From: Sphingopyxis sp. YR583
Lineage (GTDB): Bacteria > Pseudomonadota > Alphaproteobacteria > Sphingomonadales > Sphingomonadaceae
Direction of reading: 5' to 3'
DNA length: 64,000 nt
Assembly (NCBI RefSeq): GCF_900108295.1
Contig: NZ_FNWK01000003.1
Span: 248,001-312,000 of the forward strand
Part shown: positions 2,056 through 25,329 of the stretch, piece after piece
Numbering within the stretch: position 1 is the stretch's first letter
Layout of the letters: the number at the start of each line of letters is the position of its first letter
Notes under the pieces: generated by a model
What the model was told of the DNA's origin: nothing
Databases searched by the model: none
Seen by the model: the letters and a program-made list of their open reading frames with translations, nothing else
Program-made: the position numbers and the translations under genes

Positions 2056-2655
2056 TCAAGCCGTCACGACGGCCTTGCCCTGATCGGCAAAGGCGCGCTT
2101 CATGCGCGCAAAGGTCACGACCTGTCCGGTCATGATGTCGAGTTGCGACGCAATTCCGTGATCGGTCAAAATCCCGTCGGGATCGAAGAGCGGCTGGCTG
2201 CTGTTCGCGGTGACCGCCATGGGGGTCGGCCAACCGCGCAGCGCATGGGTGATCGAGCGCAGCGTCGCGAGCGTGGTGCCCGCCGCCTGCCATCCGCCAG
2301 CGACCGCGATCAGCCCGACCGCGCGACCGTCGAAATAGGGCTGCGCGTCGGACACAAGATCCTGCGCATAATCGAGCGCATTCTTGACCACCCCCGACAC
2401 GGTGCCGTGATAGGCGGGCGAAGCGACAATAATGCCGTCGGCATCGCGCAGCGCGGCCATCAGCGCCTGTGCCTTCGAACAACGTTCGCTGCGGTGCGGG
2501 GCGTACATCGGAAGGTCGATGGCTTCGCCTGCGAAGAGCATGGTCGCCGCGCCTTCCGCTTCGCAGCGGATGAGCGCGTGGCGGAGCAAGCGTTCGGCCG
2601 AGCCGCCGGCGGTGGCGTTGCCGCCGAGTGCGACGATGCGGGGGCGATCGATCAT
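2056..2655 (-). CDS. NADPH-dependent FMN reductase, SsuE-like
   Basis: A 199-residue flavodoxin-fold protein of the FMN_red family. The N-terminal strand and phosphate loop (RIVALGGNATAGGSAERLL) and the segment ADGIIVASPAYHGTVSGV followed by KNALD correspond to the FMN-binding parts of SsuE-type reductases. These supply reduced FMN to two-component monooxygenases such as SsuD or SmoC. It is the second gene of a two-gene operon. A perfect AAGGAGG ribosome-binding site overlaps the stop codon of the dioxygenase upstream (10-bp gap), so translation is probably coupled. An SsuD-like monooxygenase is encoded at 18314-19381, so this is the natural candidate for its reductase partner (inference). 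It could equally serve another flavoenzyme. Confidence 0.85.
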   Translation of the reverse strand: MIDRPRIVALGGNATAGGSAERLLRHALIRCEAEGAATMLFAGEAIDLPMYAPHRSERCSKAQALMAALRDADGIIVASPAYHGTVSGVVKNALDYAQDLVSDAQPYFDGRAVGLIAVAGGWQAAGTTLATLRSITHALRGWPTPMAVTANSSQPLFDPDGILTDHGIASQLDIMTGQVVTFARMKRAFADQGKAVVTA

Positions 2656-2665
2656 GAGATCCTCC

Positions 2666-3430
2666 TTAGTTGAAGGTCACCTGGCTGCCGCCGCGCAGGA
2701 AAGCGATGGCGTTGCGGCGGAGGTGGTTGGTGCCGGGGTTGAGAATCGGCTCGGGCGAATATTGCGCAAGATAGACGCGGCGCATGTTCGGAGTGGAATT
2801 CGATCCGGTCGCGTGGAGAGCGAGGCTGGAGAAAGCGACGATGCTGCCGGCCGGAACCTCGAGCGTCACGCCTTCGCTGTCGCCGGTGTAGCCGACGAGG
2901 TCGTTGCTGCCCGGCTGACGGATGTGCGGGACGATGCCCTCGCGCGTTTCGGGCGCCTGCGAGAAAGGCAAGATACGTACGGTGCCGTTGGCGACCGTCG
3001 TATCGTCGAGCGTGCACCAGCAAGTCAGGTACGGCTTGTGATCGGCGGGGCCCCCGTTGCCGACGACATAACCCGAATCCTGGTGCCAGCTGAACGGCAT
3101 GCCTTCGCTCGCGCCCTTCACGACATATTGGTCGTAGAAGAAATAAGCGTCGTCGCCGAGCGTCGCGCGGCAGACGTCGGCCATCGTTTCGCTGAACAAC
3201 ATATTCCGGAGATCGGGCTGCTGGCGCTGGCATTCGCCGGCGAAGTAACGCTTGCCCTTGTGGCTGATACCATCGACTTCGACGCCTAACGCGTCGAGGC
3301 GCGCGTTTTCGCGGTCGATCACGCGGCCGCATTCTTCGCGGAGCAGGTCGAGCAGCGGGCCTTCGAGGATGCGTTCGAAAACCGCATAGCCTTCGGTGGC
3401 GAATTGTTCGCGCTGCGCCGCATAATCCAT
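2666..3430 (-). CDS. Phytanoyl-CoA dioxygenase (PhyH) family Fe(II)/2-oxoglutarate enzyme
   Basis: A 254-residue cupin-fold oxygenase. The iron triad is readable: H116 and D118 in WHQDSGY and a distal H206 in LALHATG, with an Arg pair about ten residues later for 2-oxoglutarate. These positions are normal for PhyH enzymes. I place the start at ATG 3430, preceded by GGGAGAG at a good distance, rather than the in-frame GTG six bases earlier. It is the first gene of an operon with the FMN reductase and is divergent from a LysR gene. PhyH-family enzymes hydroxylate many small molecules, and iron-dependent alkanesulfonate dioxygenases are known, including one acting on sulfoquinovose. In this sulfosugar context a C-S cleaving role is possible, but the substrate is not shown by sequence. 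Confidence 0.85.
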   Translation of the reverse strand: MDYAAQREQFATEGYAVFERILEGPLLDLLREECGRVIDRENARLDALGVEVDGISHKGKRYFAGECQRQQPDLRNMLFSETMADVCRATLGDDAYFFYDQYVVKGASEGMPFSWHQDSGYVVGNGGPADHKPYLTCWCTLDDTTVANGTVRILPFSQAPETREGIVPHIRQPGSNDLVGYTGDSEGVTLEVPAGSIVAFSSLALHATGSNSTPNMRRVYLAQYSPEPILNPGTNHLRRNAIAFLRGGSQVTFN

Positions 3431-3532
3431 CTTCACTCTCCCGTATCTTTTCGATCTTTACGCATATCGCAGAGGACGGTCATCGCATCCAATCGAATTG
3501 CATCCGCCGGTCATACGTCTATACTATGGCCT
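3431..3532. promoter_or_regulatory. Divergent promoter region, dioxygenase operon / LysR
   Basis: About 100 bp separate the start codons of the dioxygenase (leftward) and LysR regulator (rightward). This is the classical arrangement in which a LysR protein controls its divergent neighbour and itself. The stretch is less GC-rich than its flanks (for example around 3447-3470 and 3511-3526). I see no LysR box certain enough to mark to the base. Confidence 0.45.
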
Positions 3533-4639: not shown

Positions 4640-6958
4640 ATGAAGACGACGAAGTTCAAGCTGGCTCTGGCGCTTTCGACCACGATGGCGATGGCGCTGA
4701 TCGCCGCCCCCGCCGCAGCGCAAGACGCCCCGGCCGAAGCCGACGCACCGTTCGCATCGACCGACATCATCGTCACCGCGCAGAAGCGCGAACAGAATTT
4801 GCAGGACGTGCCGGTCGCGATCTCGGTCGTGTCGGGCGAGCAGCTCGAACGGTCGAACGTCAATTCGGCCGAGCAGCTTTTCCAGCGCGTCCCCACGCTG
4901 ACCTTCCGCAAGGGCAACACCAACAAGGATTCGGCGCTGTCGATCCGCGGCGTCGGCACGATCAGCTTCTCGTCGGGCGTCGAGCCGTCGGTTTCGACCG
5001 TCATCGACGGCGTCGTCTATGCGCGCACCGGCCAGCAGACGTCGGATTTCCTCGACGTCGAGCGCATCGAAGTGCTGCGCGGTCCGCAGGGCAGCCTGTT
5101 CGGCAAGAATGCCAGCGCCGGCGTGATCAACATCGTGTCGCGTGAGCCCAGCAACGAGCTGGGCGGATACATCGACGCCGCCTGGTATGAGGGCAATGAA
5201 TATCGCATCCGCGGCAGCATCGGCGGCCCGCTGGGCGACGGCATCCGCGCGTCGCTGACCGGTTTCTGGTCGCAGTATGACGGCAACGCCCGCAACGTGT
5301 TCAACAACCACAAGGTCAACGGGTACGAACATTGGGGCGTGCGCGGCAAGGTGATCGCCGAGCCGACAGACAATCTGAAAATTACGCTGATCGCCGATTA
5401 TTCGAAGAACAGCGACAATGGTTTCGCCGACAGCATCGGCACCGTCTTCTCGTCGGCGTTCAACAATGCGGTGTTCATCCCGAGCCTCGCGCCGCTGACG
5501 CTCGACGGCAAGAACAAGGATATCGACAACGACCTCGATCCGTACACCAAGGACAAGAATAGCGGCGTGTCGGGGCAAATCGACCTCGATCTGGGCGGGG
5601 TCACGCTGACCTCGATCACCGCATATCGTCACTGGTATAACTTCCAGCAGCGCGACGGCGATTTCCGGTCGGATGCACCGCGTTACGTAAACACCGGCAC
5701 CGCGACGGGCGACGTCCGTTCGCACGATCGTGGCGACCTGAAGTTCGACCAGTTCACGCAGGAGCTGCGCATCGCGTCGGCCAATCCGCAATTCTTCGAA
5801 TATGTTGCGGGGCTTTATTATTATCACACGAAGGAAGTCGATTTCTTCAACCGGACGGTTACGAGCTGCACCGCATCGACGCTGCCGACCGTCGGCGGGC
5901 TGACGCCATGCGCCGCCGGATCGTCGACCTATCTGACCAACGAGGGCAACGCCGATTTCACGACCAAGCTCACCAGCTATTCGGCGTTCGGCCAAGCGAC
6001 GCTGAACTTTACCGATGCGTTCCGCGGCATCGTCGGCCTGCGCCATACCAATGACAAGGTCAGCTATGACTTTGCCCGCCGCTCGACTTCGCTCGCCGCC
6101 TTCTCCGGCGTGAACCCGGCCTTCGCCTCGGCCGGGTCGATCAAGGACACTGGCTGGTCGGGCAATGCCGGCCTGCAATATGACCTGACCGACGATATCG
6201 TCAGCTATGCGACCTATACCCGCGGTTACAAGGGTCCGGCGCTCAACGTGTTTTTCAACATGCTGGCGCGCGATACCGGCCGCATCGATCCCGAAAAGTC
6301 CGATGCCTATGAAGTCGGCCTGAAGACCCGGCTGTTCGATCGCCGCCTGACGCTGAACATCGCGGGCTTCTATGCGAAGTACGACAATTATCAGGCGAAC
6401 TTCCTCGATCTCGTCGCCGGGCAGGTCGTAACCCGCCTGACCAATGCGGGCACGGTGTCGACGCGCGGCATCGAAATGGATTTCAACGCCGCGATCACCG
6501 ACGATTTCTCGCTGTCGGGCGGCTTCAACTACACCGACGCGCATATCAACAAGTTCATCTGTCCGTCGGGCGCGGCGGTCACCTGCGCCGATGCGATCAA
6601 CGGCAAGCCGCTGCCCTTTGCCCCGAAATATAAGGGCACGGTGACGATGGACTGGCGCCTGCCGCTGAACATCGACGGCTTCAACGTCGATCTGAACAGC
6701 TCGCTCGTCTATCAGAGCCGCACCCAGTTCGACATCAACCAGAACCCCAATGCGTTCCAGAGCGCCTATGCGATCTGGGATGCCGGGATCAAGGTGAGCA
6801 CCGACGACGACAAATACAGCCTGTCGTTCATCGTCAAGAACCTGACCGACAAGCAGTTCGTGATCCAGCGCATCCCGAACGGCACGTCGTTCATGCGCCA
6901 GATCACCCCGCGCGATGCCGAGCGTTATTTCGGCGTCACCGCACGGATGAATTTCTGA
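4640..6958 (+). CDS. TonB-dependent receptor, candidate sulfosugar porin
   Basis: A 772-residue outer-membrane receptor. The start at ATG 4640 follows GGGGAGG and opens a clear signal peptide (MKTTKFKLALALST, cleavage after APAAAQ). The plug begins with the TonB-box-like STDIIVTAQKRE and QDVPVAISV, includes IEVLRGPQGSLFGKNASAG, and is followed by the barrel ending in FGVTARMNF. This IVTAQKRE type is common in sphingomonads for hydrophobic and sugar ligands. It sits 213 bp upstream of the sulfoquinovosidase on the same strand and behind a LysR gene. I therefore propose that it takes up sulfoquinovosyl glycerol or a related glycoside (inference from position only). Confidence 0.92.
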   Translation: MKTTKFKLALALSTTMAMALIAAPAAAQDAPAEADAPFASTDIIVTAQKREQNLQDVPVAISVVSGEQLERSNVNSAEQLFQRVPTLTFRKGNTNKDSALSIRGVGTISFSSGVEPSVSTVIDGVVYARTGQQTSDFLDVERIEVLRGPQGSLFGKNASAGVINIVSREPSNELGGYIDAAWYEGNEYRIRGSIGGPLGDGIRASLTGFWSQYDGNARNVFNNHKVNGYEHWGVRGKVIAEPTDNLKITLIADYSKNSDNGFADSIGTVFSSAFNNAVFIPSLAPLTLDGKNKDIDNDLDPYTKDKNSGVSGQIDLDLGGVTLTSITAYRHWYNFQQRDGDFRSDAPRYVNTGTATGDVRSHDRGDLKFDQFTQELRIASANPQFFEYVAGLYYYHTKEVDFFNRTVTSCTASTLPTVGGLTPCAAGSSTYLTNEGNADFTTKLTSYSAFGQATLNFTDAFRGIVGLRHTNDKVSYDFARRSTSLAAFSGVNPAFASAGSIKDTGWSGNAGLQYDLTDDIVSYATYTRGYKGPALNVFFNMLARDTGRIDPEKSDAYEVGLKTRLFDRRLTLNIAGFYAKYDNYQANFLDLVAGQVVTRLTNAGTVSTRGIEMDFNAAITDDFSLSGGFNYTDAHINKFICPSGAAVTCADAINGKPLPFAPKYKGTVTMDWRLPLNIDGFNVDLNSSLVYQSRTQFDINQNPNAFQSAYAIWDAGIKVSTDDDKYSLSFIVKNLTDKQFVIQRIPNGTSFMRQITPRDAERYFGVTARMNF

Positions 6959-7171: not shown

Positions 7172-9181
7172 ATGGCGCTTGATGCGCGCGACACCGGCTT
7201 TGCACTCCGCCTCGGCGGGCAGGTGATCCTCTCGCATCAGGGCGGCGCGCCCTGTTTCTTTGTCGGGCGCGGCGAAGCGCATGTTCATTCGAAGCTTGGG
7301 CATTTCGATGTGTCGCAGACGGTGATCGAGCGTATTGCGCTGGGGCATGTCGAGGTCGATGGACCGGTCATACGATTTGCCGAGGCCGCGGGTTCGCCCT
7401 GGCTGCTCGAAGCGCGCATCGCGGGCGACGGCGACGATGCGACGATCGCGTTGACGGCGCTCGATCCGGCGCTCAACCGATTGTGGCTGCGCATTCCCGC
7501 CGACGCGGGCGAGCATGTGTGGGGCGGCGGCGAGCAATTCTCCTATTTCGACCTGCGCGGGCGGCATGTCCCTTTGTGGTCGAGCGAGCCGGGTGTTGGC
7601 CGCGATCCGTCGTCGGAGCTGTTCCGGCAGGTCGAGGCGCACCGCAAGGGCGGCGGCGGCAGCCCGACGCACACCAATTACCCGCAGCCGACGTTCGTGA
7701 GTTCGCGGCGGTACGCGCTGCATGTCGACAGCTTTGCCTATTCGGCGTTCGATTTCCGCGACGAGGGTTATCACGAGGTCGAGGTGTGGGAGATTCCCGC
7801 GAAGATCGAGCTGTGGGCGCGGCCGCGCTTTGCCGAGCTGGTGTCGGCGCTGTCGGCGCGCTTCGGGCGCCAGCCGCCGCTGCCCGAATGGCTGCTGAAG
7901 GGCGCGGTCATTGGCCTGAAGGATGGCGACAACAGTTTTGCGCGGCTCAAGGCCTATGAGGAGGCCGGGGTCGCGGTGTCGGGACTGTGGTGCGAGGACT
8001 GGGTCGGGCTTCGGATCACCAGTTTCGGCAATCGGTTGTTCTGGGACTGGCAGTGGAATGCGGAGCGCTATCCCGAATTGCCGGCGCGGATCGCGGAATT
8101 GCGCGAGCGCGGGATCCGGTTCCTTGGTTATGTGAACCCGTATCTAGCGGTCGATGGTCCGCTCTATGCCGAGGCCGCGGCGCAGGGGTTTATGGTGATG
8201 CGTCCCGACAAGGACGAGCCCTATATAATTGACTTTGGCGAGTTCGATTGCGGACATGTCGATTTCACCAATCCGGCGGCCGCAGCGTGGTTCGCCGACA
8301 CGATCATCGGCGAGAAGATGATCGATTTCGGGCTGTCGGGCTGGATGGCAGACTTTGGCGAGTATCTGCCCGTCGATGTGCGGCTGGCAAATGGCGAGAG
8401 CGGGATGACCGCGCATAATCGCTGGCCGGCGCTGTGGGGCGAAGTGAATGCCAAGGGCATCGCCATGCGCGGGCAGACCGGCGAGATGATGGTGTTCATG
8501 CGCTCGGGCGCGACCGGCGTTCAGGGGCATTGCCCGATGCTGTGGGCGGGCGACCAGTCGGTCGATTTCAGCCGCCACGACGGGATCGGGACGGTGATAT
8601 GCGCCGCGCTGTCGGCGGGGATGCTGGGCAACGCGCATCATCACAGCGATTGCGGCGGCTATACCAGCCTGTTCGAAACGACGCGCGATGCCGAACTGGC
8701 GATGCGCTGGGCCGAGATGTCGGCGTTTACGTCGATGATCCGCACGCATGAGGGCAACCGGCCGCGGCAGAATGTGCAATATGACGATGACGCCGAACTG
8801 CTCGCACATTTTGCGAAGATGACGCGGATTTATGCGCATCTGGCGCCGTATATCCGGCGGCTGTCGAAGGAGGCTTCGGAGACGGGGTTGCCGGTGCAGC
8901 GGCCGCTGTTCCTGCATTTCGAGGACGATCTCGAAACCTATGCGATCCAGACGTCGTATCTGCTCGGGCCCGATCTGCTTGTCGCGCCGGTGATCGCGAC
9001 GGGGAAGAGCGAGTGGACGACCTATCTGCCCGCCGGGGCCGACTGGGTGCATGTCTGGTCGGGGCAGAGCTATGCGGGCGGGAGCGATGTGACGGTCGCG
9101 GCGCCGTTCGGGGAGCCGCCGGTGTTTTACCGTGCGGGGTCGGCGGATAGCGCGCTGTTCGACGGGATCGTCTCGGCCTGA
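7172..9181 (+). CDS. yihQ: Sulfoquinovosidase, glycoside hydrolase family 31
   Basis: A 669-residue GH31 enzyme (E. coli YihQ has 678). It hydrolyses alpha-sulfoquinovosides such as sulfoquinovosyl glycerol to sulfoquinovose and glycerol. The nucleophile is D394 in SGWMADFGEYLP and the acid/base D461 in WAGDQSVD; their 67-residue spacing equals that of YihQ. The sulfonate-binding set is complete: K250 (GLKDG), E275 (WCEDW), R288 and W291 (GNRLFW), and Y497 (DCGGYTSLF). This is the KERWY version known from Agrobacterium rather than the QQRWY of E. coli. No signal peptide is present, so it should act in the cytoplasm. I chose ATG 7172 because the homologous domain begins there; an AAGGA motif lies a few bases upstream. 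Its 3' end overlaps the convergent LysR gene by 55 bp. Confidence 0.93.
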   Translation: MALDARDTGFALRLGGQVILSHQGGAPCFFVGRGEAHVHSKLGHFDVSQTVIERIALGHVEVDGPVIRFAEAAGSPWLLEARIAGDGDDATIALTALDPALNRLWLRIPADAGEHVWGGGEQFSYFDLRGRHVPLWSSEPGVGRDPSSELFRQVEAHRKGGGGSPTHTNYPQPTFVSSRRYALHVDSFAYSAFDFRDEGYHEVEVWEIPAKIELWARPRFAELVSALSARFGRQPPLPEWLLKGAVIGLKDGDNSFARLKAYEEAGVAVSGLWCEDWVGLRITSFGNRLFWDWQWNAERYPELPARIAELRERGIRFLGYVNPYLAVDGPLYAEAAAQGFMVMRPDKDEPYIIDFGEFDCGHVDFTNPAAAAWFADTIIGEKMIDFGLSGWMADFGEYLPVDVRLANGESGMTAHNRWPALWGEVNAKGIAMRGQTGEMMVFMRSGATGVQGHCPMLWAGDQSVDFSRHDGIGTVICAALSAGMLGNAHHHSDCGGYTSLFETTRDAELAMRWAEMSAFTSMIRTHEGNRPRQNVQYDDDAELLAHFAKMTRIYAHLAPYIRRLSKEASETGLPVQRPLFLHFEDDLETYAIQTSYLLGPDLLVAPVIATGKSEWTTYLPAGADWVHVWSGQSYAGGSDVTVAAPFGEPPVFYRAGSADSALFDGIVSA

Positions 9182-10044
9182 GCCACCTCCTTCAGCACAT
9201 CGACGAACGCGGCGACGAGCGCGCTGCGGCTGCGGTTGCGGAGGAGATGAATGGCATCGCGGGTGACTTCGGATGGCGGCAGCGCGATCATCGCGAGGCC
9301 GCTACGGATCGCGAGGCGCTGCGGCACGACGGTGATCGCGCGGCCGCTGCGTGCCATGTCGAGGCAGGCGGCGGTGGAATCGAGCTCATAATCGGGGAAT
9401 TGCCCCGCGGCGACGCGGGCGCGGAGGGCGCGGGGGAAGTTACTGCCCGGTGCAGGACGCGGGAGCGCCCAGGGGAAGTCAGCGCTGTCGCCCGCCCCTT
9501 TCGCGAGCGGATGATCGAGGGCGCAGACGAGCATCAAAGGTTCGGGCGGGAGCGGAATGCAGAGCACCTCGTCGGCGTGGCCCGAGGATGCGAATTTGGC
9601 GCGGTTGCAGACGACGAGGTCGAGGCGGCGGTCGACGAGGGTTTCAAGCAATTGCTCGGACGGGCCGCCGGTGACGGTGACGCGCACGCCTGGGTGGCTT
9701 TCTGCAAAGCGCACGATTGCGTCGGTGAGCAAGGGCTGCAGCGGATAGGGACCGCTGCCGACCGCGACGGTGCCGCCGCTCGGCTGGCCGAGGCCGCGCG
9801 CTTCCTGTTCGAGGTTCGCCGAGGCAGCGATGACGTCGCGCGCCGAGCGGATCAGGCGGTCGGCGTCGCTGGTCGGTCGGACATAGTGGGTGGTGCGGTC
9901 GAAGAGCGTGGCGCCCAGTTCTTCCTCGAGCTTCTGGATCGAGCGGGTCAGCGCCGACTGCGTGAGGCCGAGTTCGTCGGCGGCGCGCGCGTAGCTGGCG
10001 AGACGGTAGAGCGTGTCGAAATGGCGGAGGCGGCGGAGGTTCAT
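9127..10044 (-). CDS. LysR-family transcriptional regulator
   Basis: A 305-residue LysR protein. The start at ATG 10044 gives the standard beginning (MNLRRLRHFDTLYRL). The helix-turn-helix (AADELGLTQSALTRSIQKLE) is followed by an effector domain with a VAVGSGPYPLQPL segment where LysR proteins usually start their sensor lobe. It is divergent from the GlpD-like gene with 65 bp between starts and so probably controls the oxidase/kinase operon. Its end overlaps the end of the sulfoquinovosidase gene. The effector is unknown; a product of sulfoglycoside or polyol breakdown is a reasonable guess. Confidence 0.9.
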   Translation of the reverse strand: MNLRRLRHFDTLYRLASYARAADELGLTQSALTRSIQKLEEELGATLFDRTTHYVRPTSDADRLIRSARDVIAASANLEQEARGLGQPSGGTVAVGSGPYPLQPLLTDAIVRFAESHPGVRVTVTGGPSEQLLETLVDRRLDLVVCNRAKFASSGHADEVLCIPLPPEPLMLVCALDHPLAKGAGDSADFPWALPRPAPGSNFPRALRARVAAGQFPDYELDSTAACLDMARSGRAITVVPQRLAIRSGLAMIALPPSEVTRDAIHLLRNRSRSALVAAFVDVLKEVAQAETIPSNSALSADPAR

Positions 10045-10109
10045 GGCGCGCACCATATCATTCCTGTTTTGCAATACCAATAGCACCGTGATGCGCATAG
10101 CGTGAGGAT

Positions 10110-11663
10110 ATGAGCAGCACCCAACTCGATGCGCGGCGGCGTGTGCAGGTCTTTGCCGAACTGGAATCGCGGACGTTCGACCTCGCGGTGATCGGCGGCG
10201 GGATCACCGGCGCGGGGATCGCGCGCGATGCGGCGATGCGCGGGCTGTCGGTCGCGCTGGTCGAGGCGCGCGACTATGCGAGCGGCACGAGCAGTCGAAG
10301 CTCGAAGATGATCCATGGCGGGCTGCGCTATCTGGCGCAGGGCGACATTGCGCTGGTCAAGGAAGCGGCGTCGGAGCGGCAGATCCTGCGGCGGATCGCC
10401 CCGCACCTGACGCGGCTGTCGCCCTTCCTGATCCCGACGACGAACATGGCGATGACCGCGAAGCTGCGGACGGGGCTGTGGACGTTCGAGAAGCTCGGCA
10501 GCGTGCCCGAGGCCGAAAAGCATGAGGTGATCGGGCTGGCCGAACTGCAGCGGCGCGAGCCGTTGATGCGCACCGATAAGCTCAACGGCGCGGTGCTGTA
10601 TCCCGAATTCCTGACCGACGATGCGCGGCTGGTGCTCGCGAATATCCGCAGCGCGCAGGGTGCGGGCGCGGTGGTCGTGAGCCATGCGGCGGCGTCCGAG
10701 CTAACGGGTGACGGGCTGGTTGCGACGTCGACGCTCGACGACGGGCTGGGCGCGCGGATCAAGGCGAAGCTGGTCGTCAACGCCGCGGGCGCGTGGGTCG
10801 ATCAGGTGCGCGGGCTCGAAGCGGGCGAAGGCGACGCACGCATGTCGCTGAGCCGCGGCATCCATCTGGTGCTGCCGCGCGTGCGGTTGACGATCAATTC
10901 CACGATCATCATCCGCGCGCCCGACAAGCGCAGCATCTTCGCGGTGCCGCGCGGGGCATTCACCTATATCGGCACGACCGACGTGTTCCATGACGGCGCC
11001 GATTACTGGCCCGCACCGACGCGAGGCGACATCGACTATCTGCTGCGCGCGACCGAGGCGGCGCTGGCGATCGATCCGATCCGCGATGCCGAGATCGCCT
11101 CGCTCTGGTCGGGGGTGCGGCCGCTGATCGCGCAGCCGGGGAAGAAGGCGAACGAGGTATCGCGCAAGGACGAGATCTGGACCTCGCCCAGCGGGCTGGT
11201 GTCGATCGCGGGGGGCAAGCTCAGCGCCTATCGCGCGATGGCCGAGCGTGTCGTCGATCTGGTGGTCGAGCGGTTGGGCGCGACCGCTCTGCCTTGTTCG
11301 ACCGCCGATGCGCCGCTGCCGGGCGGCTTTCGCGAGTTGCGGCTGGCCGGACTCGATCCGTTGGCGGCCGAGCGGCTGGCGGGGCTGTACGGCGACGAGG
11401 CGAACGAGATCGTGATCGCGGGCGGCGATGTCGCTGCCGAGGCGGCGCGCGCGGTGACGCACGAAGGCGCATCGACGCTGGAGGATTATTGGGTGCGGCG
11501 GAGTGCGCGCGCGTGGTTCGACGACGGTGCGGGCCTCGCGGCGCTGGCGCCTGCCGCCAATGTGATGGGCGCGCTGCTCGGGTGGGATGACGCCATGAAG
11601 GCGGACCAGATCGCGCATTGCCGCCGGATCAACGATGAGAGCCGCAGGCTTTTGGGAGAGTGA
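10110..11663 (+). CDS. GlpD-like FAD-dependent glycerol-3-phosphate (or polyol-phosphate) dehydrogenase
   Basis: A 517-residue FAD enzyme of the GlpD family. The dinucleotide loop is GGGITGAG (residues 29-36), and the family signature GTSSRSSKMIHGGLRYL follows about 45 residues later. YIGTTDVFHDG and SLWSGVRPL are further GlpD landmarks, and the length is normal. GlpD oxidises sn-glycerol 3-phosphate to dihydroxyacetone phosphate and passes electrons to quinone at the inner membrane. It is first in a tight operon with an FAD oxidase (1-bp gap) and an FGGY kinase (8-bp overlap). Glycerol from sulfoquinovosyl glycerol would fit. However, EryB of erythritol pathways belongs to the same family, and the neighbouring kinase is not a typical glycerol kinase, so the substrate is left open. 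Confidence 0.85.
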   Translation: MSSTQLDARRRVQVFAELESRTFDLAVIGGGITGAGIARDAAMRGLSVALVEARDYASGTSSRSSKMIHGGLRYLAQGDIALVKEAASERQILRRIAPHLTRLSPFLIPTTNMAMTAKLRTGLWTFEKLGSVPEAEKHEVIGLAELQRREPLMRTDKLNGAVLYPEFLTDDARLVLANIRSAQGAGAVVVSHAAASELTGDGLVATSTLDDGLGARIKAKLVVNAAGAWVDQVRGLEAGEGDARMSLSRGIHLVLPRVRLTINSTIIIRAPDKRSIFAVPRGAFTYIGTTDVFHDGADYWPAPTRGDIDYLLRATEAALAIDPIRDAEIASLWSGVRPLIAQPGKKANEVSRKDEIWTSPSGLVSIAGGKLSAYRAMAERVVDLVVERLGATALPCSTADAPLPGGFRELRLAGLDPLAAERLAGLYGDEANEIVIAGGDVAAEAARAVTHEGASTLEDYWVRRSARAWFDDGAGLAALAPAANVMGALLGWDDAMKADQIAHCRRINDESRRLLGE

Positions 11664-14479: not shown

Positions 14480-14501
14480 CTCAGCCCCATATTCCGTTTG
14501 T

Positions 14502-14577: not shown

Positions 14578-14607
14578 GCGAACGGGATTTGGGTGACGCG
14601 GAAAGTG

Positions 14608-15444
14608 TCAGGCCCCGCTCACCTCGCGCCACAGACCGCGAACGATATCGCGCATGCGCTGCGCTTCATCCCAGCGGTTCGTGAGTTCGCTGCCGTCGGG
14701 CGCGGTGATCGCATAGGGCGGCGGGCCGAGTTCGCACATGAAGGTCAGCGCGTCATCGCCCCGCGCCTGTTCGAGCCAGAGTTCGAAGCCGCGACGCCAC
14801 CACGCGATATGCTGGTCGAGCCAGGCCTGATGCTGCGGCGCGTCGAGCGCAACCTGGACCTGATGCGTTGTCGAGACGCGGCCGTGGAAATTATGGCTGC
14901 CCTGCAGGATCGTCTCGATCGCCGCCAGTTGGTCGTCGCGGAGCGGCAGTTCCATCTCGCCCGCGACGGGATAATGCGAGAGATCGGCGGTGAGCGGCAG
15001 GCCGGGGCGTTCCTCGAGCAATTGCAGCGTGAAAAGCAGGTCGTTGGTGAGGCGGCCGCGGTGAGTTTCGAACCACACGGGGAGCGGCGCATCCTTCGCC
15101 GCGGCGATCAGGCTGTCGATCAGGCGCAGCGCGGCGCGGAAGTCGGCGGTCGGGCCGGCGATCTGGACGTTGAGGTGATGCGCGCCGAGGCGGTGCGCTT
15201 CGCCGATCCAGTGGCGGAGCTGGTCGGCGTCATGGATGAGCACCTGTCCTTCCCATGCGAGGCCGAGCGGGTTCATGACGCGCGCGACGCCGTCGGTGCG
15301 CGCGGTGCGTGCGAGGTTGACGCCAACGCCGTCGAACCCGGCGGCGACGACCTCGTTCAGCGCCTCGTCGAGGCGATTTTCGATGTCGAAACCGGGGCAT
15401 TTGTCGAGGCCCCAGACCGATTGAAGAACGAGCAATTCGGGCAT
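14608..15444 (-). CDS. Sugar phosphate isomerase/epimerase-like TIM barrel protein
   Basis: A 278-residue xylose-isomerase-like (AP_endonuc_2) TIM barrel. Metal- or substrate-binding positions of this fold are visible as the Glu in WFETHRGR and the Asp-His in LTADLSHYP, with further His residues in the third quarter. ATG 15444 follows AAAAGGAAG. Such proteins isomerise or epimerise free or phosphorylated sugars, for example EryC-type isomerases in tetritol pathways. It is the only leftward gene in this part, divergent from the spinster-type MFS gene, and its promoter carries a LacI-like operator at 15458-15471. The reaction is unknown. Confidence 0.75.
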   Translation of the reverse strand: MPELLVLQSVWGLDKCPGFDIENRLDEALNEVVAAGFDGVGVNLARTARTDGVARVMNPLGLAWEGQVLIHDADQLRHWIGEAHRLGAHHLNVQIAGPTADFRAALRLIDSLIAAAKDAPLPVWFETHRGRLTNDLLFTLQLLEERPGLPLTADLSHYPVAGEMELPLRDDQLAAIETILQGSHNFHGRVSTTHQVQVALDAPQHQAWLDQHIAWWRRGFELWLEQARGDDALTFMCELGPPPYAITAPDGSELTNRWDEAQRMRDIVRGLWREVSGA

Positions 15445-15457: not shown

Positions 15458-15471
15458 AGACAACGCTGTCA
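15458..15471. promoter_or_regulatory. LacI-type operator, isomerase / MFS divergent promoter
   Basis: AGACAACGCTGTCA is a near-perfect dyad with the central CG typical of LacI-family operators. It lies 14 bp before the isomerase start, where binding would block initiation. It belongs to a set of four similar sites around the LacI regulator encoded at 23066-24070. Confidence 0.6.
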
Positions 15472-15503: not shown

Positions 15504-15582
15504 TCGTCATGCGGGACTTGATCCGGCATCCATGAATGCAGGCGTTGGGAGAATGGACCCCGGATCAAGTCCGGGGTGACGA
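15504..15582. repeat. Dispersed inverted repeat
   Basis: Exact 13-bp arms GGACTTGATCCGG (15514-15526) and CCGGATCAAGTCC (15560-15572) sit inside longer imperfect arms. This is a different family from the repeats at 14502 and 18212. It lies unusually in a divergent promoter region, just upstream of the MFS gene. Confidence 0.7.
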
Positions 15583-15609: not shown

Positions 15610-16947
15610 ATGATAAGCGAAGCCCCCACCCTGCCCGCCGCAGCGCCCTTGTCGCCCGCGTACCGCCGCTATGCGCTGACGGTATTGCTGATCATCTATA
15701 TCCTCAATTTCCTCGACCGGCAGATCGTCTCGATCCTTGCCGAGCCGATCAAGAATGAGCTGCACCTCGCCGACTGGCAGCTCGGCGTGATGACAGGGCT
15801 CGCCTTTGCGCTTTTCTATACGGTGCTCGGCATCCCGATCGCGCGCTTTGCCGAAACGGGCGACCGGCCAAGGATCATCGCGGTCGCCGCGGGACTGTGG
15901 AGCGTGTTCACCGTTGCGTGCGGCTTTGCGCAGAATTTCGTCCAGCTCGTACTCTGCCGGATCGGCGTCGGGATTGGCGAAGCGGGGTGTACGCCGCCGG
16001 CGCATTCGCTGATCACCGACTATACGCCAAAGGAGAAGCGCGCCTCCGCCCTCGCCTTCTACTCGCTCGGAATTCCCCTGGGCGGGCTGCTTGGGCTCGC
16101 GATGGGTGGGCTGATCGCCGATGCTTATGGATGGCGGACGGCGTTCCTTGTCGCGGGCGCGCCAGGCGTGCTGATGGCGCTGATCGCGTGGGCGACGCTG
16201 AAGGAACCGCGGCGGCAGCAGATGAATGCCGACCTCGCGGCGCTAAAGGCCTCGCGGCCCGATTTCAGGACCGCGATGGCCGAGATCCGCAGCAAGCGCA
16301 CCTTCTGGCTGATCGCCTTCGCCGCGGCGATCAAGGCGTTCATCGGCTATGGTGCCGCGGCCTTCCTCGCTCCCTTTTTCTTTCGCAACCATGCCGAGGA
16401 ACTGACGGTGATCGCGGGCGATTTCGGGCTGGGGCTGACCGGGTTTCTCGGCGTTGCACTCGGCATCGTGCTCGGGCTGACCGGCGCGCTCGGGACGTGG
16501 ATGGGCGGGCAGCTTGCCGACAAATATGGCGGGCGCGATTTGCGCGCCTATGTCGCGATCCCGGCGGTTTCGACCTTTCTCGGCATCCCCTTTTACATCG
16601 CGGGACTGATGGCGGATTCGGCGGTGTTCGCGCTGATCATGTTTGCCTTTCCGCCTATCCTCAACACGCTCTGGTACGGGCCGGGCTTCGCCGCGGTGCA
16701 GGGGCTGGTGCAGCCGCAGACGCGCGCGACGGCGGTGGCGGTGCTGCTGTTCATCATCAACCTGCTGGGCCTCGGATTAGGCCCACTCGGCGTCGGCGCG
16801 GTCAGCGATTTCCTCTCGGGCCCGATGGAGCTAGGATCGGCGGAGGGCGTGCGCTGGTCGCTGATGATCTTCATCCTGTTCGGCGCGCTCGCCTCGGCGC
16901 TGTTCTGGATGGCGCGCAAAACGATCCGTGAGGAGATGGTCAGTTGA
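15610..16947 (+). CDS. MFS transporter, spinster-like
   Basis: A 445-residue, 12-helix major-facilitator protein. The first helix region has NFLDRQIVSILAEPIKNE, and the loop GIGEAGCTPPAHSLITDY with PKEKRASALAFYSLGIPLG is typical of the spinster-like subgroup common in sphingomonads. The start ATG 15610 follows GAGAGG. It overlaps the iron alcohol dehydrogenase by four bases (TTGA), so the two form one unit. It probably moves a product or substrate of this pathway across the inner membrane; direction and ligand are not readable. A LacI-like operator lies about 140 bp upstream. Confidence 0.88.
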   Translation: MISEAPTLPAAAPLSPAYRRYALTVLLIIYILNFLDRQIVSILAEPIKNELHLADWQLGVMTGLAFALFYTVLGIPIARFAETGDRPRIIAVAAGLWSVFTVACGFAQNFVQLVLCRIGVGIGEAGCTPPAHSLITDYTPKEKRASALAFYSLGIPLGGLLGLAMGGLIADAYGWRTAFLVAGAPGVLMALIAWATLKEPRRQQMNADLAALKASRPDFRTAMAEIRSKRTFWLIAFAAAIKAFIGYGAAAFLAPFFFRNHAEELTVIAGDFGLGLTGFLGVALGIVLGLTGALGTWMGGQLADKYGGRDLRAYVAIPAVSTFLGIPFYIAGLMADSAVFALIMFAFPPILNTLWYGPGFAAVQGLVQPQTRATAVAVLLFIINLLGLGLGPLGVGAVSDFLSGPMELGSAEGVRWSLMIFILFGALASALFWMARKTIREEMVS

Positions 16948-18313: not shown

Positions 18314-19381
18314 TCAGAGTTCCAGCGGCCCGTGCTTCATCTTCGGCAGCACATGGCGCGCGAAGAGGTCGGCTTCGGCGGCGTGCGGGTAGCCCGAGAG
18401 GATGAAGGCTTCGATGCCCATGTCCTGATAGCGGGCAAGCTTCGCGAGCACCTGATCGGGGTCGCCGACGATCGCGGCGCCGCAGCCCGAGCGGGCGCGG
18501 CCGACGCCGGTCCACAGATTGTCCTCGACATAGCCGTCGTCGGACGCGGCTTCGCGCAAGGCAACCTGTGCGTTGACGCCGAACGATTGCGAGTCGAGCG
18601 ACTTCGCCTTGATCTCGGCGCCCTTCGCGGCGTCGAGCTTCGAGAGCAGGCGGTCGGCGGCGGTGCGCGCTTCGCTTTCGGTGTCGCGCACGATCATATG
18701 CGCGCGATAGCCGAATTTGAGGGTGCGGCCGTATGCGGCGGCGCGCTGGGCCATGTCGGCGATGATCTCCTTCACCACCTCTTCGCGGTCGGGCCACATC
18801 AGGAAGACGTCGCAGCCCTTGGCGGCGGCGTCGCGCGCGGCCGGGGAAAGCCCGCCGAAGTAGAGCGGCGGCGCCTTGCCCGACACGGTCCCGACGCGCG
18901 CGGGTGCGACCTGCAGCTTCCAGAACTCGCCGTCATGGTCGAGTTCCTCGCCATTGAGCAGGGTCTTCAGGATATGCATCGCCTCGACCGTGCGGCGGTA
19001 GCGCGGTTCGGAGTCCATCGCCTCGCCGGGCATGTCCGAGGAGATGATGTTGACCGTCAGGCGGCCGCCGAGGATCTGGTCGATCGTCGCGATCTGGCGC
19101 GCGAGCTGCGGCGGCCAGCTTTCGCCGATGCGCACCGCCATCAGCAGACGGATGCGCTTCACCATCGTCGCGATCGCCGCGGCGAAGGCGGTGGTGTCGA
19201 TGCCGAGCGCATAGCCCGAGGGGAGCAGGATATTGTCGAAACCCTGACTGTCGGCCTGCATCACGATGTCGCGGCAATGCTCCCAGCTCGATTTGAGCAT
19301 CGGGTCGGGAACGCCTAGGAATTCATAGTCGTCGTCGCAGAGCGCCGAAAACCAGCTAACCTCGCACGAGCGGTCGGTCAT
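18314..19381 (-). CDS. SsuD/SmoC-like FMNH2-dependent sulfonate monooxygenase
   Basis: A 355-residue luciferase-like monooxygenase of the alkanesulfonate type. Four active-site residues of E. coli SsuD are present at the same numbers: R226 and H228 (FGYRAHMIVR), R297 (RARSGCG) and Y331 (LSGYPH). GGRLTVNIISSDMPGE and PPLYFGG are further family marks. SsuD's Cys54 position is not Cys. SmoC enzymes use FMNH2 and oxygen to cleave the C-S bond of sulfoquinovose, giving 6-oxo-glucose and sulfite. Its ATG overlaps the stop of the aldo/keto reductase (ATGA), exactly the SmoB/SmoC pairing. With a sulfoquinovosidase in the same locus, sulfoquinovose is the likeliest substrate; another alkanesulfonate cannot be excluded. 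Confidence 0.88.
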   Translation of the reverse strand: MTDRSCEVSWFSALCDDDYEFLGVPDPMLKSSWEHCRDIVMQADSQGFDNILLPSGYALGIDTTAFAAAIATMVKRIRLLMAVRIGESWPPQLARQIATIDQILGGRLTVNIISSDMPGEAMDSEPRYRRTVEAMHILKTLLNGEELDHDGEFWKLQVAPARVGTVSGKAPPLYFGGLSPAARDAAAKGCDVFLMWPDREEVVKEIIADMAQRAAAYGRTLKFGYRAHMIVRDTESEARTAADRLLSKLDAAKGAEIKAKSLDSQSFGVNAQVALREAASDDGYVEDNLWTGVGRARSGCGAAIVGDPDQVLAKLARYQDMGIEAFILSGYPHAAEADLFARHVLPKMKHGPLEL

Positions 19382-21625: not shown

Positions 21626-21639
21626 AGATAACGTTGTCA
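21626..21639. promoter_or_regulatory. LacI-type operator before the permease-reductase-monooxygenase operon
   Basis: AGATAACGTTGTCA, a near-dyad with central ACGT, is 36 bp upstream of the permease start and thus in the expected position for repression. It matches the other sites of the set in 9-10 of 12 core bases. Confidence 0.6.
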
Positions 21640-21715: not shown

Positions 21716-22897
21716 TCAGAAATCCAACATCCACCCCGCCAATCCTCCCGCGAGAACGAGCGCTGGAGCGACCAGCTTTCCTTTCCAGCGCCAAACTATC
21801 GGAAGGGCGACCAAAAACAGGAGAACAGACACAAGGAGATTTGTCGAACGCCCTGCGGTAGACCAGCCGAGTTGCAACAGCGTCGCCGCAATCACCCCAA
21901 CGACCGCCGCAGCTACTCCGGCCAACACACGATGCAGCGCGGGGTGCTCAACAACCGCCTCCAGCTGTTCGAAGAAGATCATCGAGAAAGCAAAGGCAGG
22001 CAGAAACATGCCCACCGTGATGGCGAGGGCACCCGGAAATCCCGCCGAGACATAGCCGACAAAAGTCGCGAAGATAACGAGCGGCGCGGGCAGCATCCCC
22101 GCAAATGCGACTCCGTCCAGAAAGCTCGCGTCGCTGATCCAGCCCCGGCCCACCGTGTCAGATCGCACGTAAGGGATCGCGGTGTAGGCACCGCCGAAGG
22201 TTAGGAGACCACCCTTCAATCCGGCGACGAACAGAGCAACTACCCCCACCTCGCTCGGCACACCAGCTACGGCGATCGGCGGTTCGGTTCCTAGCACAGC
22301 GAAGCCCACCAGGATCGCTGCGGCCGATAGGCCGGCCGCAATGATCGGCCGCTCCGCAAATGTGTAAATCAGTCCCGATGCGATCAAGGGTATCCAGAAC
22401 GGCACACCCGCCAATGTCGCGGCGAGGGCGGCCCCGGCAAATAGCCACAGCAGCCAATCTTCGAGAATGTGCGTTCCGATCCGTTGCACCGCGCGCGCAA
22501 TGATCGCCAGCACGACCACCTGCACACCAAGGAAAACTGACGCCAGTGCGGAGTTGCCGACGATCCAGGCGCTATAGACCCAAGCCGCCGCCAGCATCAG
22601 CAAGAAGCCCGGCAACATGAAACCGAGCCCGGCGATCAATCCTCCGATCCGCCCGCGGGCAAGCATCCCCAAATGAACACAAAGTTCGTGAGCTTCTGGT
22701 CCGGGCAAAATTTGCATGACGGCAAGCAAGCGGTTGAACCGCGCCGGTGAAATCCAACGCTCTTCCTCAACGAGAGCCTGCTTGACCATGGCGATTTGCG
22801 CGACCGGGCCACCGAAAGCGAGGAAGCCGAAGCGCAAGAAGCGAAGAAAAAGTTGAAACAATGAGATACTGGGCGGAGAATAGATATCGGTTGTCAT
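21716..22897 (-). CDS. chrA: Chromate transporter family protein (ChrA, full-length)
   Basis: A 393-residue membrane protein with the two homologous halves of long-chain ChrA: FGFLAFGGPVAQIAMV and QILPGPEAHELCVHLGM in the first, GGLLTFGGAYTAIPYVR and AGMLPAPLVIFATFVGY in the second. ChrA exports chromate, a sulfate analogue, by proton-linked antiport. I use ATG 22897; a GTG nine bases upstream is nearer to the AGGGAG motif. By eye this gene is a little less GC-rich and uses more A/T-ending codons than its neighbours, suggesting later arrival. It sits inside the sulfosugar locus, so export of sulfate or sulfite instead of chromate is a testable thought, not a conclusion. Confidence 0.88.
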   Translation of the reverse strand: MTTDIYSPPSISLFQLFLRFLRFGFLAFGGPVAQIAMVKQALVEEERWISPARFNRLLAVMQILPGPEAHELCVHLGMLARGRIGGLIAGLGFMLPGFLLMLAAAWVYSAWIVGNSALASVFLGVQVVVLAIIARAVQRIGTHILEDWLLWLFAGAALAATLAGVPFWIPLIASGLIYTFAERPIIAAGLSAAAILVGFAVLGTEPPIAVAGVPSEVGVVALFVAGLKGGLLTFGGAYTAIPYVRSDTVGRGWISDASFLDGVAFAGMLPAPLVIFATFVGYVSAGFPGALAITVGMFLPAFAFSMIFFEQLEAVVEHPALHRVLAGVAAAVVGVIAATLLQLGWSTAGRSTNLLVSVLLFLVALPIVWRWKGKLVAPALVLAGGLAGWMLDF

Positions 22898-23065
22898 TGC
22901 AAGCACGCTCCCTGCCGCAGGCGCGGCTTATGGAGCGGAACTTGGGCGAGGCTTCGCCTGAACGGGCGTCCGCATTGCCCGCGTCCTCTGTCTACCGAGG
23001 TCATATGAAAAAGGAAGATAGACTTTATTTCAACGCGGCGTTGGAATGACCACAATCGATCGTTT

Positions 23066-24070: not shown

Positions 24071-24228
24071 GCGCGCTTGCGCTCCGTCCCCGGCTGGCAA
24101 ATCGCTATCACGGCTCCGCATCTCCCCGTTCGGCCTGTTGACCATCGTTGTCTGCTTTGGCGCGTCGCGCCGCCCACCGCAAGAGAAGCCTTGCGCCGCC
24201 ACCCGGCATCACGATATGACGCGACCTT

Positions 24229-25329
24229 ATGACAACGCTGGACAGAAATGACTTAACCTCGATGCGCCATGCGCATTGGAACAATCTGCCGAGCGGCGGT
24301 GACCTGTTCGGCGAATTGCATCTGGCGCAGACCGTCGCAGGTGCGGCGCCGAAGGGCAGCTTCTTTCCCGGCCTCGCGGCCTGCGCCGCGGCGTCGGCCG
24401 CCGCCGCGTGGCTGTCCGATCATTATGGCTTTCCGATCATCCTTCTCGGGCTGCTCGTCGGACTCGCGCTCAATTTCATTTCGGCGAACGAGGCCACGCA
24501 CCGTGGGCTGGACTTCGCGTCGCGCACCTTCCTGCGCATCGGCATCGTCGTGCTGGGGCTACAGGTCACCTTCATGCAGATCGCGGTGCTTGGGCCGGTG
24601 CCCTTTGCAGCGCTGATCATCATCATGACATTGACGATGGGGGCCGGATTCCTGGGGGCACGCCTGTCGGGACAGACGCCTTATTCGGGCCTGCTCGCCG
24701 GCGGCGCGACGGCGATCTGCGGCGCGAGCGCGGCGCTGGCGCTATATGGGGTGATCGGGCGGCAGCGATTGTCGCAGGCGCAGTTCGCGCTGACATTGGT
24801 CGGCGTCTCGCTCGCGAGCGCGCTCGCGATGACGATTTATCCGTTGCTTGCCAGCAAGTTCGGCCTTTCCGATGCGCAGGCGGGCTTCCTGATCGGCGCA
24901 TCGGTCCACGACGTCGCGCAGGCGATCGGCGGCGGCTATGCCTTTTCCGACGCCGCGGGTGCGAGCGCGACGATCGTCAAACTCGCGCGTGTTGCGATGC
25001 TGGCGCCGGTGGTTGCGCTTGTCGGCCTGTTGCTGAAGCCCGAGGACGACGGCGATACGCAAATCTGGCGCCGCCTCGCCCTGCCTTGGTTTATCGTCGC
25101 CTTTTTCGCGGTGGTCGCCCTCAACAGCGCCGTCGCGATCCCCGAAGGCGTGCGCGGGGCGGCGCTGACCGCGTCGAAGGCACTGTTGCTGCTCGCGGTC
25201 ACCGCGACCGCGATGCGCACCCGGCTCGACCTGCTGCTCGAAATGGGCTGGCGCGCAACCGTCCCCGTGCTGCTCGCGTCGCTGACGAGTTTTGCCGTGT
25301 CGCTGCTCTTCGCGCTGGCAATCGTCTAG
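24229..25329 (+). CDS. YeiH/UPF0324 family membrane protein, putative sulfate/sulfite exporter
   Basis: A 366-residue polytopic protein (about 10 helices) of the YeiH family, which is annotated as putative sulfate exporter. Marks are GLLVGLALNFISANE, RIGIVVLGLQVTF, LLAGGATAICGASAALA and GASVHDVAQAIGGGYAFSD. Two starts are possible. ATG 24229 overlaps a LacI-like operator; ATG 24262 may be the true one (355 residues). Neither has a good ribosome-binding site. Oxygenolytic desulfonation releases sulfite, which must be oxidised or exported, so divergence from the LacI regulator gives it a logical place in the pathway. Its stop shares CTAG with the stop of the convergent amidohydrolase. Confidence 0.82.
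   Translation: MTTLDRNDLTSMRHAHWNNLPSGGDLFGELHLAQTVAGAAPKGSFFPGLAACAAASAAAAWLSDHYGFPIILLGLLVGLALNFISANEATHRGLDFASRTFLRIGIVVLGLQVTFMQIAVLGPVPFAALIIIMTLTMGAGFLGARLSGQTPYSGLLAGGATAICGASAALALYGVIGRQRLSQAQFALTLVGVSLASALAMTIYPLLASKFGLSDAQAGFLIGASVHDVAQAIGGGYAFSDAAGASATIVKLARVAMLAPVVALVGLLLKPEDDGDTQIWRRLALPWFIVAFFAVVALNSAVAIPEGVRGAALTASKALLLLAVTATAMRTRLDLLLEMGWRATVPVLLASLTSFAVSLLFALAIV
24230..24243. promoter_or_regulatory. LacI-type operator (one strong half) at exporter/repressor promoter
   Basis: TGACAACGCTGGAC has one perfect half-site of the set and a weaker second half. It coincides with the first possible ATG of the exporter (24229) and lies 160 bp from the repressor start. It could mediate autoregulation and control of the exporter. 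Confidence 0.45.

Follow-up and report, generated by a model that had tools for sequence, protein, structure and literature searches.

Sulfoquinovose (SQ), the sugar moiety of plant sulfolipid, ranks among the organosulfur compounds of greatest abundance (PMC12890257). Here we describe a predicted SQ-utilisation locus of Sphingopyxis sp. YR583 (genome G000, 4.3 Mb), which occupies positions 2056 to 25329 of a 64,000-nucleotide stretch of DNA (contig NZ_FNWK01000003.1, positions 248,001 to 312,000), hereafter called the window. The SQ genes lie on either side of a five-gene middle module, which includes a relative of alkyldihydroxyacetonephosphate synthase (AGPS), and the locus also carries a PhyH-type oxygenase gene and three copies of a LacI-type operator.

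Sulfoquinovose genes of the locus

The genes assigned to SQ release, cleavage, transport and control are as follows (MFS, major facilitator superfamily).

7172..9181, plus strand: GH31 sulfoquinovosidase (SQase); 927 bits to 5ohy, sulfonate-binding and catalytic residues 7/7
18314..19381, minus strand: SQ monooxygenase (SMO), SmoC/SquD-like, FMNH2-dependent by family; assigned from PDB bit scores
19378..20289 (start 20298, 20289 or 20280 possible), minus strand: SmoB/SquF-like aldo/keto reductase (AKR); 161 bits to 7bbz
2056..2655, minus strand: NAD(P)H:FMN reductase; PF03358, 84 bits
16944..18110, plus strand: iron-containing alcohol dehydrogenase (FeADH); PF00465/PF25137, below all NCBIfam cut-offs
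4640..6958, plus strand: TonB-dependent receptor (TonB1); PF00593/PF07715
20338..21591, minus strand: MFS anion:H+ symporter-like permease of the DgoT/ExuT type (MFS2); 133 bits to 6e9n (D-galactonate transport)
24229..25329, plus strand: YeiH-type putative sulfite/sulfate exporter; PF03601, 180 bits
23066..24070, minus strand: LacI-family regulator that presumably binds the operator; assigned by Pfam

A preliminary description, made from the sequence alone, had proposed an SQase with the KERWY sulfonate-binding set and both catalytic aspartates, and the comparisons bear this out. Specifically, the protein scores 927 bits against PDB entries 5ohy/5ohs, which we take to be the Agrobacterium SQase, and 671 bits against YihQ (5aed), compared to 149 bits against the YicI-type 8t7z. 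All seven key residues are kept, five of them sulfonate-binding (K250, E275, R288, W291 and Y497) and two catalytic (D394 and D461); in the reference numbering these are presumably K245, E270, R283, W286, Y491, Asp388 and Asp455. The N-terminus, MALDARDTGF, shows no obvious signal sequence by eye.

The SmoC/SsuD-like monooxygenase and the overlapping SmoB-like reductase of the same description were likewise recovered. The monooxygenase scores 388 and 382 bits against 7olf and 7oh2, which we take to be SmoC, versus 233 against the alkanesulfonate monooxygenase 7jv3 and 201 against 1m41/1nqk, presumably E. coli SsuD, and it falls under the NCBIfam alkanesulfonate monooxygenase cut-off. The top PDB matches of the AKR, at 161 and 160 bits, are 7bbz and 7bby, which we assume to represent SmoB, and its gene shares a 4 bp overlap with that of the SMO. 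The YeiH-type exporter and the LacI regulator were also recognised as proposed, the former through PF03601, with 117 bits in TIGR00698, under the cut-off of 232.6. The reading frame of a further receptor, at 70-2004, covers only the 3' portion of its gene, which extends upstream and the product of which has 1,002-1,016 amino acids in four congeners.

For comparison, 80 SMO-bearing loci were retrieved by a scan of genome contigs (G numbers denote genomes and L numbers loci). They are the best 80 of at least 586 relatives, with a bias towards close relatives; they are related to one another, and many are cut by contig ends. Tallies are by clustering of called genes, and tblastn matches covering less than 30% of the query were dropped in one survey. 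AKR genes occur in 61 loci, TonB receptors (the TBDT1 cluster, as TonB1) in 50, LacI regulators in 48, MFS2 permeases in 45, YeiH in 33, Gfo/Idh (GH188-like) genes in 29, GH31 genes in 28, FMN reductase, SorA-like and SorB-like genes in 18 each, AGPS-like genes in six and PhyH in four (five by tblastn). GH31 and GH188-like genes never share a locus, 23 loci, many of them truncated, having neither. Against 8qc3, one of the SqgA (GH188) structures of PMC10755693, the Gfo/Idh protein encoded in L073 reaches 361 bits.

In 18 of the 80 loci a SorA-like molybdopterin sulfite dehydrogenase accompanies a small haem-binding protein (e.g., L050:11719-12927 and L100:11657-13176). This is a putative alternative to export for sulfite disposal; no such gene was recognised near SMO in the window. 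In addition, the Rhizobium loci L086, L098, L101, L103 and L106 carry a sphingomonad-type SMO (72-73%) without sphingomonad neighbours, which points to horizontal exchange.

The FMN reductase had been called SsuE-like. Its membership of PF03358 stands, while the protein scores under the NCBIfam SsuE and MsuE cut-offs. Its gene lies 15.7 kb from that of the SMO in the window; relatives at 44-50% occur in SMO loci, and clustering places the gene in 18 of the 80, with orthologs after SMO in, e.g., L061 and L100. It is the likely supplier of reductant to the SMO.

The sulfo-SMO pathways of Novosphingobium aromaticivorans, with SquD and SquF, and of Agrobacterium were reportedly described by Liu in 2021 and by Sharma in 2022, respectively. 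SquD and SquF of N. aromaticivorans have been characterised biochemically (PMC9594981), and the system of strain DSM 12444 (sulfo-SMO/sulfo-ASMO; PMC9594981, PMC12890257) resembles the window in being that of a sphingomonad with an SQase, a SquD-type monooxygenase and a SquF-type reductase. Novosphingobium was labelled by 13C-SQ, with sulfo-SMO predicted, and was dominant among the labelled SQ users in mangrove (PMC13372026). In the Novosphingobium loci L087 and L088, the TonB, SQase, LacI, AKR and SMO genes form one run (L087 also has MFS2 and YeiH). The window differs in that a module separates its two sets of SQ genes and in its additional PhyH, flavin reductase and two LysR genes; according to PMC9594981, N. 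aromaticivorans lacks SsuE. The Agrobacterium system shares homologs of the SQase, monooxygenase, reductase and flavin reductase with the window, but uses an SQ-glycerol ABC importer (PMC9594981) where the window has TonB and MFS genes. The GH188-type clusters, such as that of Sphingomonas sp. Leaf17, a strain that PMC10755693 names in the legend to a cluster figure (L073 bears the same strain name), share LacI, YeiH, MFS2, TonB, AKR, SMO, FMN reductase and the operator with the window; in L073, by contrast, a GH188-like gene replaces GH31 and no AGPS-like module occurs in its 21 kb.

The preliminary description had rightly noted TonB (PF00593/PF07715) and ExuT-like MFS (133 bits to 6e9n) uptake genes beside the sulfo-SMO set. 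Novelty of the pathway or of these uptake genes in sphingomonads is not supported: SquD and SquF of N. aromaticivorans are known (PMC9594981), and TonB and/or MFS2 genes lie near SMO in 62 of the 80 loci. Such genes are thus usual in SMO loci, and the window is a member of a known pathway. The gene list of that description was also incomplete, as it missed the following four genes and the TIM-barrel gene (14608-15444) of the module.

2666..3436, minus strand: PhyH-type Fe(II)/2-oxoglutarate oxygenase (PhyH); PF05721, 78.5 bits
3404..4456, plus strand: LysR-type regulator 1 (LysR1), divergent from PhyH; Pfam
9127..10098, minus strand: LysR-type regulator 2 (LysR2), divergent from the GlpD-like gene; Pfam, in 5/7 congeners
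21716..22906, minus strand: ChrA-family transporter gene, between MFS2 and LacI

The middle module and its distribution

The middle module consists of five genes.

10110..11663, plus strand: GlpD-like FAD glycerol-3-phosphate dehydrogenase paralog; PF01266/PF16901, below the NCBIfam GlpD cut-offs
11665..13068, plus strand: AGPS-like FAD enzyme; top PDB match 2uuu
13061..14479, plus strand: FGGY glycerol-kinase-like kinase with an altered polyol pocket; 247 bits to GlpK 2dpn
14608..15444, minus strand: AP_endonuc_2/xylose-isomerase-like TIM-barrel protein; PF01261, 18.4 bits, below the cut-off of 31.1
15610..16947, plus strand: spinster-like MFS transporter (MFS1); 274 bits to 6e8j, SPNS1 and SPNS2 among the next matches

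The AGPS-like protein scores 192 bits against AGPS 2uuu versus 112 bits against D-lactate dehydrogenase. In a 477-amino-acid reading from position 11635 it keeps R267 (assigned by a hand count on the alignment), Y394 and H431-433, corresponding to R419, Y578 and H615-617 of AGPS, which we take to be the catalytic residues of that enzyme. The window protein shares both a sequence relationship and catalytic residues with AGPS (PDB 2uuu, 4bby), from which it differs in being bacterial and shorter and in its operon context, beside kinase and GlpD-like genes.

The module kinase reaches 322 bits in TIGR01311, the cut-off of which is 590. At the positions of Glu84, Tyr135 and Phe270, which we assume to be the glycerol-contacting residues of GlpK, the six module kinases aligned, the window's included, carry A, S or T, then Q, then V or T, respectively; E, Y and F are kept in all three canonical GlpK proteins aligned, one of which is encoded elsewhere in the window's own genome. 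The TIM-barrel gene is convergent to the kinase gene, and the predicted model of its product (pLDDT 94) has UlaE and IolE as its closest folds; by fold only, it may be assigned as UlaE/IolE-like. Short intergenic repeats were seen at 14476-14600, between the kinase and TIM-barrel genes, and at 15530-15580, before MFS1; a reading FDKLRANG in one frame and a GGATCAAGTCCGGGG type were noted.

Spinsters transport lysolipids and sphingosine phosphate in animals. Erythritol-type polyol operons, for their part, contain an FGGY kinase, a GlpD-like enzyme and a TIM-barrel isomerase. On this general gene content, the module shares with them the combination of kinase, GlpD-like and TIM-barrel genes, and differs in that its kinase is closest to GlpK among solved structures and that AGPS-like and spinster-like genes are added.

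Among 35 congeners, SMO occurs at 93-98% in eight, at 71-73% in four and as an 88% fragment in one. The corresponding stretch was read in seven of the eight congeners with a full-length SMO of at least 93%. All seven carry the SQase, the GlpD-like, AGPS-like, kinase, TIM-barrel and MFS1 genes, FeADH, SMO, AKR and MFS2, with the module placed between SQase and SMO. PhyH (96% in G007 by tblastn), FMN reductase, LysR1 and TonB1 occur in six of the seven, the contig of G009 ending there; LacI and YeiH are each found in six, and an acyl-CoA ligase gene in two. In G013 and G027 (loci L184 and L186), the SQase stop overlaps the GlpD-like start by 4 bp (GTGA), which points to SQase and GlpD-like genes on one transcript; LysR2 was not found in these two congeners. 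The ChrA gene was found in none of the seven; at its position, G013 and G027 carry a 602-amino-acid gene, of ABC exporter type by Pfam in G027, the one scanned.

Outside the genus, Sphingobium boeckii (L033) and Sphingomonas colocasiae (L035) keep the same gene order at 68-86% identity. G208 has two blocks about 260 kb apart, one holding the module, MFS2 and LacI, the other SQase, ligase, TonB, LysR1, PhyH, AKR and SMO. In G415, from another family, the module is accompanied by a 64% SQase, TonB, MFS2 and PhyH, with MFS1 and YeiH further on, and no SMO ortholog was found in the genome (best match 28%). In a class sample of 384 other genomes, the window's own excluded, SMO is present in three of the six genomes with an AGPS-like ortholog (counted at 54% identity or more, eight genomes with 30-36% matches being left out) versus 17 of the 378 others (Fisher 0.002; 0.02 at one genome per genus). 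In addition, lipid-type genes lie near the module or the SQase in relatives: an acyl-CoA ligase beside SQase in G007, G009, G208, G415 and G656, an aldehyde dehydrogenase with FA_hydroxylase in G415, G656 and partly G661, and an acyl-CoA thioesterase in G364.

Predicted operator sites and regulators

Three sites in the window match the palindromic consensus TGACAACGTTGTCA, none of them assigned to a strand.

15458..15471: LacI-type operator, TIM-barrel/MFS1 divergent promoter; AGACAACGCTGTCA, 2 mismatches, 21.0 bits
20275..20288: LacI-type operator, AKR-SMO start; TGACATCGCTGTCA, 2 mismatches
21626..21639: LacI-type operator upstream of MFS2; AGATAACGTTGTCA, 2 mismatches

These are the only sites in the 64 kb at up to two mismatches, whereas 200 dinucleotide shuffles gave 0.07 sites on average and never more than one. 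At up to three mismatches the count is still three, with 0.89 expected and seven of 100 shuffles reaching three. Each of the three sits at a promoter of the locus: that of MFS2, that of AKR-SMO and that of the divergent TIM barrel/MFS1-FeADH pair. A matrix built from 27 distinct sites of related loci, including words identical to the three sites, gives them 21-22 bits, compared to 11.95 for the next-best window position and to best scores of 10.4 to 15.2 in four other stretches of 16-20 kb; as these words came in from congener loci, the window scores are no independent evidence. The shuffle count is the fairer test, though the consensus was chosen post hoc.

Among the 80 SMO loci, 66 operator sites were counted in 38 loci, versus 0-3 in ten shuffled sets. 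The called starts at -60 to 250 bp of these sites belong to MFS2 (20), AKR (19), GH188-like (13), YeiH (13), MFS1 (5), TIM-barrel (5), TonB (3) and SQase (1) genes and to two unnamed ones, 12 sites having none. Of the six loci that bear the module, five have the MFS1/TIM-barrel site at up to two mismatches and the sixth (L035) at three; in G208 (L151) an operator stands at the same module position with one mismatch. Sites were not found in the G415 locus L145, nor in L087 and L088. The literature search on SQ with LacI and operator returned E. coli work only.

The shared predicted operator places MFS1 and the TIM barrel in the SQ gene regulon. Together with the synteny in all seven congeners, it argues that the module is not incidental. 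The preliminary description had seen two distant blocks with an extra polyol module between them; the split is real, and the module is better read as a dispensable part of the same regulon.

Upstream of TonB1, SQase and PhyH the palindrome scan found nothing and no matrix score exceeded 10 bits; because no operator was found there, this block is probably under LysR1 and LysR2. LysR1, the true start of which is probably near 3533, adjoins PhyH in L153, L172 and L175 and lies within 4 kb of it in L177-L179. Between the two genes, at 3480-3535 of the window, a stretch of the form CCAATCGAATTGCATC...ATCATACGTCTATACTATG is conserved among congeners and in part also in G208, and is possibly a LysR1 site with promoter.

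Proposed function and alternative explanations

The gene content, residues, synteny and operator sequences observed here are probably best explained by an aerobic sulfolipid-utilisation regulon plus a separable five-gene module for the catabolism of 1-O-substituted glycerols. By analogy with known families, sulfoquinovosides would enter through the TonB receptor in the outer membrane and the permease MFS2, and the cytoplasmic GH31 SQase would free SQ from them. FMNH2 made by the reductase would drive the SMO, which would cut the C-S bond to yield sulfite and 6-dehydroglucose; the AKR would turn the latter into glucose, and YeiH would send sulfite out. The LacI repressor would act at TGACAACGTTGTCA to control MFS2, AKR-SMO and the divergent TIM-barrel/MFS1-FeADH promoter.

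For the module, we infer in this analysis alone both the substrate and the order of reactions. The kinase has lost the glycerol residues, the AGPS-like protein has kept those of AGPS, MFS1 is spinster-like and an acyl-CoA ligase lies beside SQase in relatives; from these features, the substrate would be a 1-O-substituted glycerol, e.g., a monoacyl- or alkylglycerol from a sulfolipid diet, perhaps the sulfolipid aglycone. The kinase would form the 3-phosphate, the GlpD-like enzyme would oxidise it to a substituted dihydroxyacetone phosphate (DHAP), and the AGPS-like enzyme would strip the substituent to leave DHAP. Phosphorylation, C2 oxidation and C1-O exchange would be the simplest chemistry uniting the three enzymes. 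A more far-reaching version, the degradation of the whole sulfolipid, is possible and we put it forward tentatively: the spinster-like importer and the SQ permease would take up lyso-sulfolipid or its pieces, SQase would free SQ and acyl- or alkylglycerol, the kinase, GlpD-like and AGPS-like cascade (a catabolic AGPS) would strip the chain to DHAP within a partly SQ-responsive LacI regulon, and PhyH would add an oxygenation.

A number of observations weigh against the proposed regulon and module. In Sphingopyxis soli (L029, an ungapped 10 kb contig; SMO 96%), TonB, SQase, FeADH, SMO, AKR and MFS2 follow one another and the module is absent, so that it is dispensable for the SQ genes. FeADH, the gene of which overlaps MFS1 by 4 bp in the window, was not seen next to the module in G208, G415 and G656 (L145, L151-L152, L164 and L173-L174); since L029 retains it without the module, FeADH goes with the SQ core, and we rejected it as a module gene. 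An AGPS-like gene is present in G357, where the best SMO match (22%) is no ortholog and SQase gave no match, and in G482, with no match to either; in G364 and G467 module and SMO are on different contigs, and in G594 they are 31 kb apart. From these occurrences without or apart from SQ genes, we regard the module as a separable unit that joined SQ loci in some lineages. Regarding regulation, the operator consensus was idealised after the palindrome had been spotted upstream of MFS2, kinship among the 80 loci makes the operator counts non-independent locus by locus, and the GlpD-AGPS-kinase run has no operator in front, being probably controlled by LysR2 or read through from SQase. As for the substrate, the genes flanking the window's module included no recognisable aldehyde dehydrogenase or lipase, acylglycerols could be handled by plain esterases and, to our knowledge, ether SQ-lipids are not established as a diet.

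Of the other explanations, the one that survives best, and which we still consider unlikely, is an ordinary sulfo-SMO locus in which the middle genes burn plain glycerol from SQ-glycerol through a glycerol kinase and GlpD, the AGPS-like protein being a passenger. The kinase and the GlpD-like protein are indeed closest to glycerol enzymes, canonical GlpK and/or GlpD-like genes lie near other SQ loci (L041, L048, L054, L059 and G415), and L029 could have lost the module without harm provided that it has another GlpK. However, the three glycerol-contacting residues are missing from all six module kinases aligned, a separate canonical GlpK is available in the window's genome, and G415 carries both kinase versions within 40 kb. 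In addition, the AGPS-like gene accompanies the GlpD-like one in all seven congeners, and the AGPS residues of the window protein are intact.

Less probable still is that PhyH acts as a second C-S cleaving enzyme, an Fe/2-oxoglutarate SQ dioxygenase beside the SMO or, in some species, instead of it. The PhyH gene lies 10 bp before that of the FMN reductase on the same strand, and H118, D120 and H208 are invariant across 41 sequences. The best of five predicted models (pLDDT 86, range 61 to 86) has SnoN and prolyl hydroxylases as its nearest folds (about 20% identity), ahead of human PHYHD1, and is consistent with a small-molecule PhyH-type oxygenase. The six PDB matches at E<=0.001 are EvdO2, ectoine hydroxylase, a ThoJ-type protein, SnoK, the PhyH-labelled 7dt0 and EctD; human PHYH is not among them, and we rejected a phytanoyl-CoA enzyme. 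Neither these matches nor the 50 fold matches listed include a sulfonate-cleaving homolog, which argues against the dioxygenase.

In its favour stands the co-occurrence of PhyH and SMO in 69 sampled genomes of the family of G415, counted at E up to 1e-60 for the former and 1e-80 for the latter: five have both, two PhyH only, three SMO only and 59 neither (Fisher 1e-4, kinship not corrected). The neighbours of PhyH are LysR1, GH188-like and TonB genes in L175, with MFS2 in addition in L177, L178 and L179, and PhyH belongs with SQ use in the close family. The two genomes G415 and G661 lack an SMO ortholog (best 28% and 30%), G415 retaining SQase and a PF03601-type exporter, and G639 has a TonB-MFS2-LysR1-GH188-PhyH arrangement with the SMO about 690 kb off. 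On the other hand, five of the seven PhyH genomes also have SMO, and a simple replacement of the SMO was rejected, as only two are without it. Moreover, AKR was not found in L145, L163, L164, L172 and L179; in the class sample, the only close PhyH ortholog besides that of the window is in G415, and no SQ genes were recognised next to the weaker relatives, which are at 52% in G486 and at 39% in G297. We also observed that G415 (L145, L164) and G661 (L172) have orthologs of both PhyH and LysR2, G415 having in addition an SQase, a TonB receptor and YeiH; the two genomes are candidates for an undescribed SQ route.

The expulsion of sulfite by the AGPS-like enzyme appears very improbable. Here, the kinase would form the 3-phosphate of 2,3-dihydroxypropanesulfonate (DHPS), the GlpD-like enzyme would convert it to 1-sulfo-DHAP, and an FAD-N5 adduct would eliminate sulfite, a new desulfonation of cross-fed DHPS. 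This scheme is chemically parallel to the AGPS mechanism and the module does sit in a sulfonate regulon with an exporter, but MFS1 is spinster-like rather than anion-type and the neighbours in relatives are of lipid type (acyl-CoA ligase, aldehyde dehydrogenase, thioesterase and FA_hydroxylase). Finally, specificity cannot be given with certainty by sequence, yet a luciferase-like monooxygenase serving another sulfonate, with the SQase adjacent by chance, is hardly credible given its 388 bits to 7olf versus 233 and 201 to other alkanesulfonate monooxygenases, and given GH31 (28) or GH188-like (29) genes, never both and neither in 23, in the 80 SMO loci.

In conclusion, the pathway is known and its uptake genes are usual in sphingomonads; the novelty of this locus lies in PhyH, the operator and an AGPS-like module that appears to be co-regulated. 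If the module does act on 1-O-substituted glycerols, some SQ loci would handle the glycerolipid aglycone as well and would use an AGPS-type enzyme in catabolism, a role for which our literature search found no described case. S. soli L029 provides a natural module-free comparison strain, and with the operator the SQ regulon of sphingomonads can be searched for and tested.

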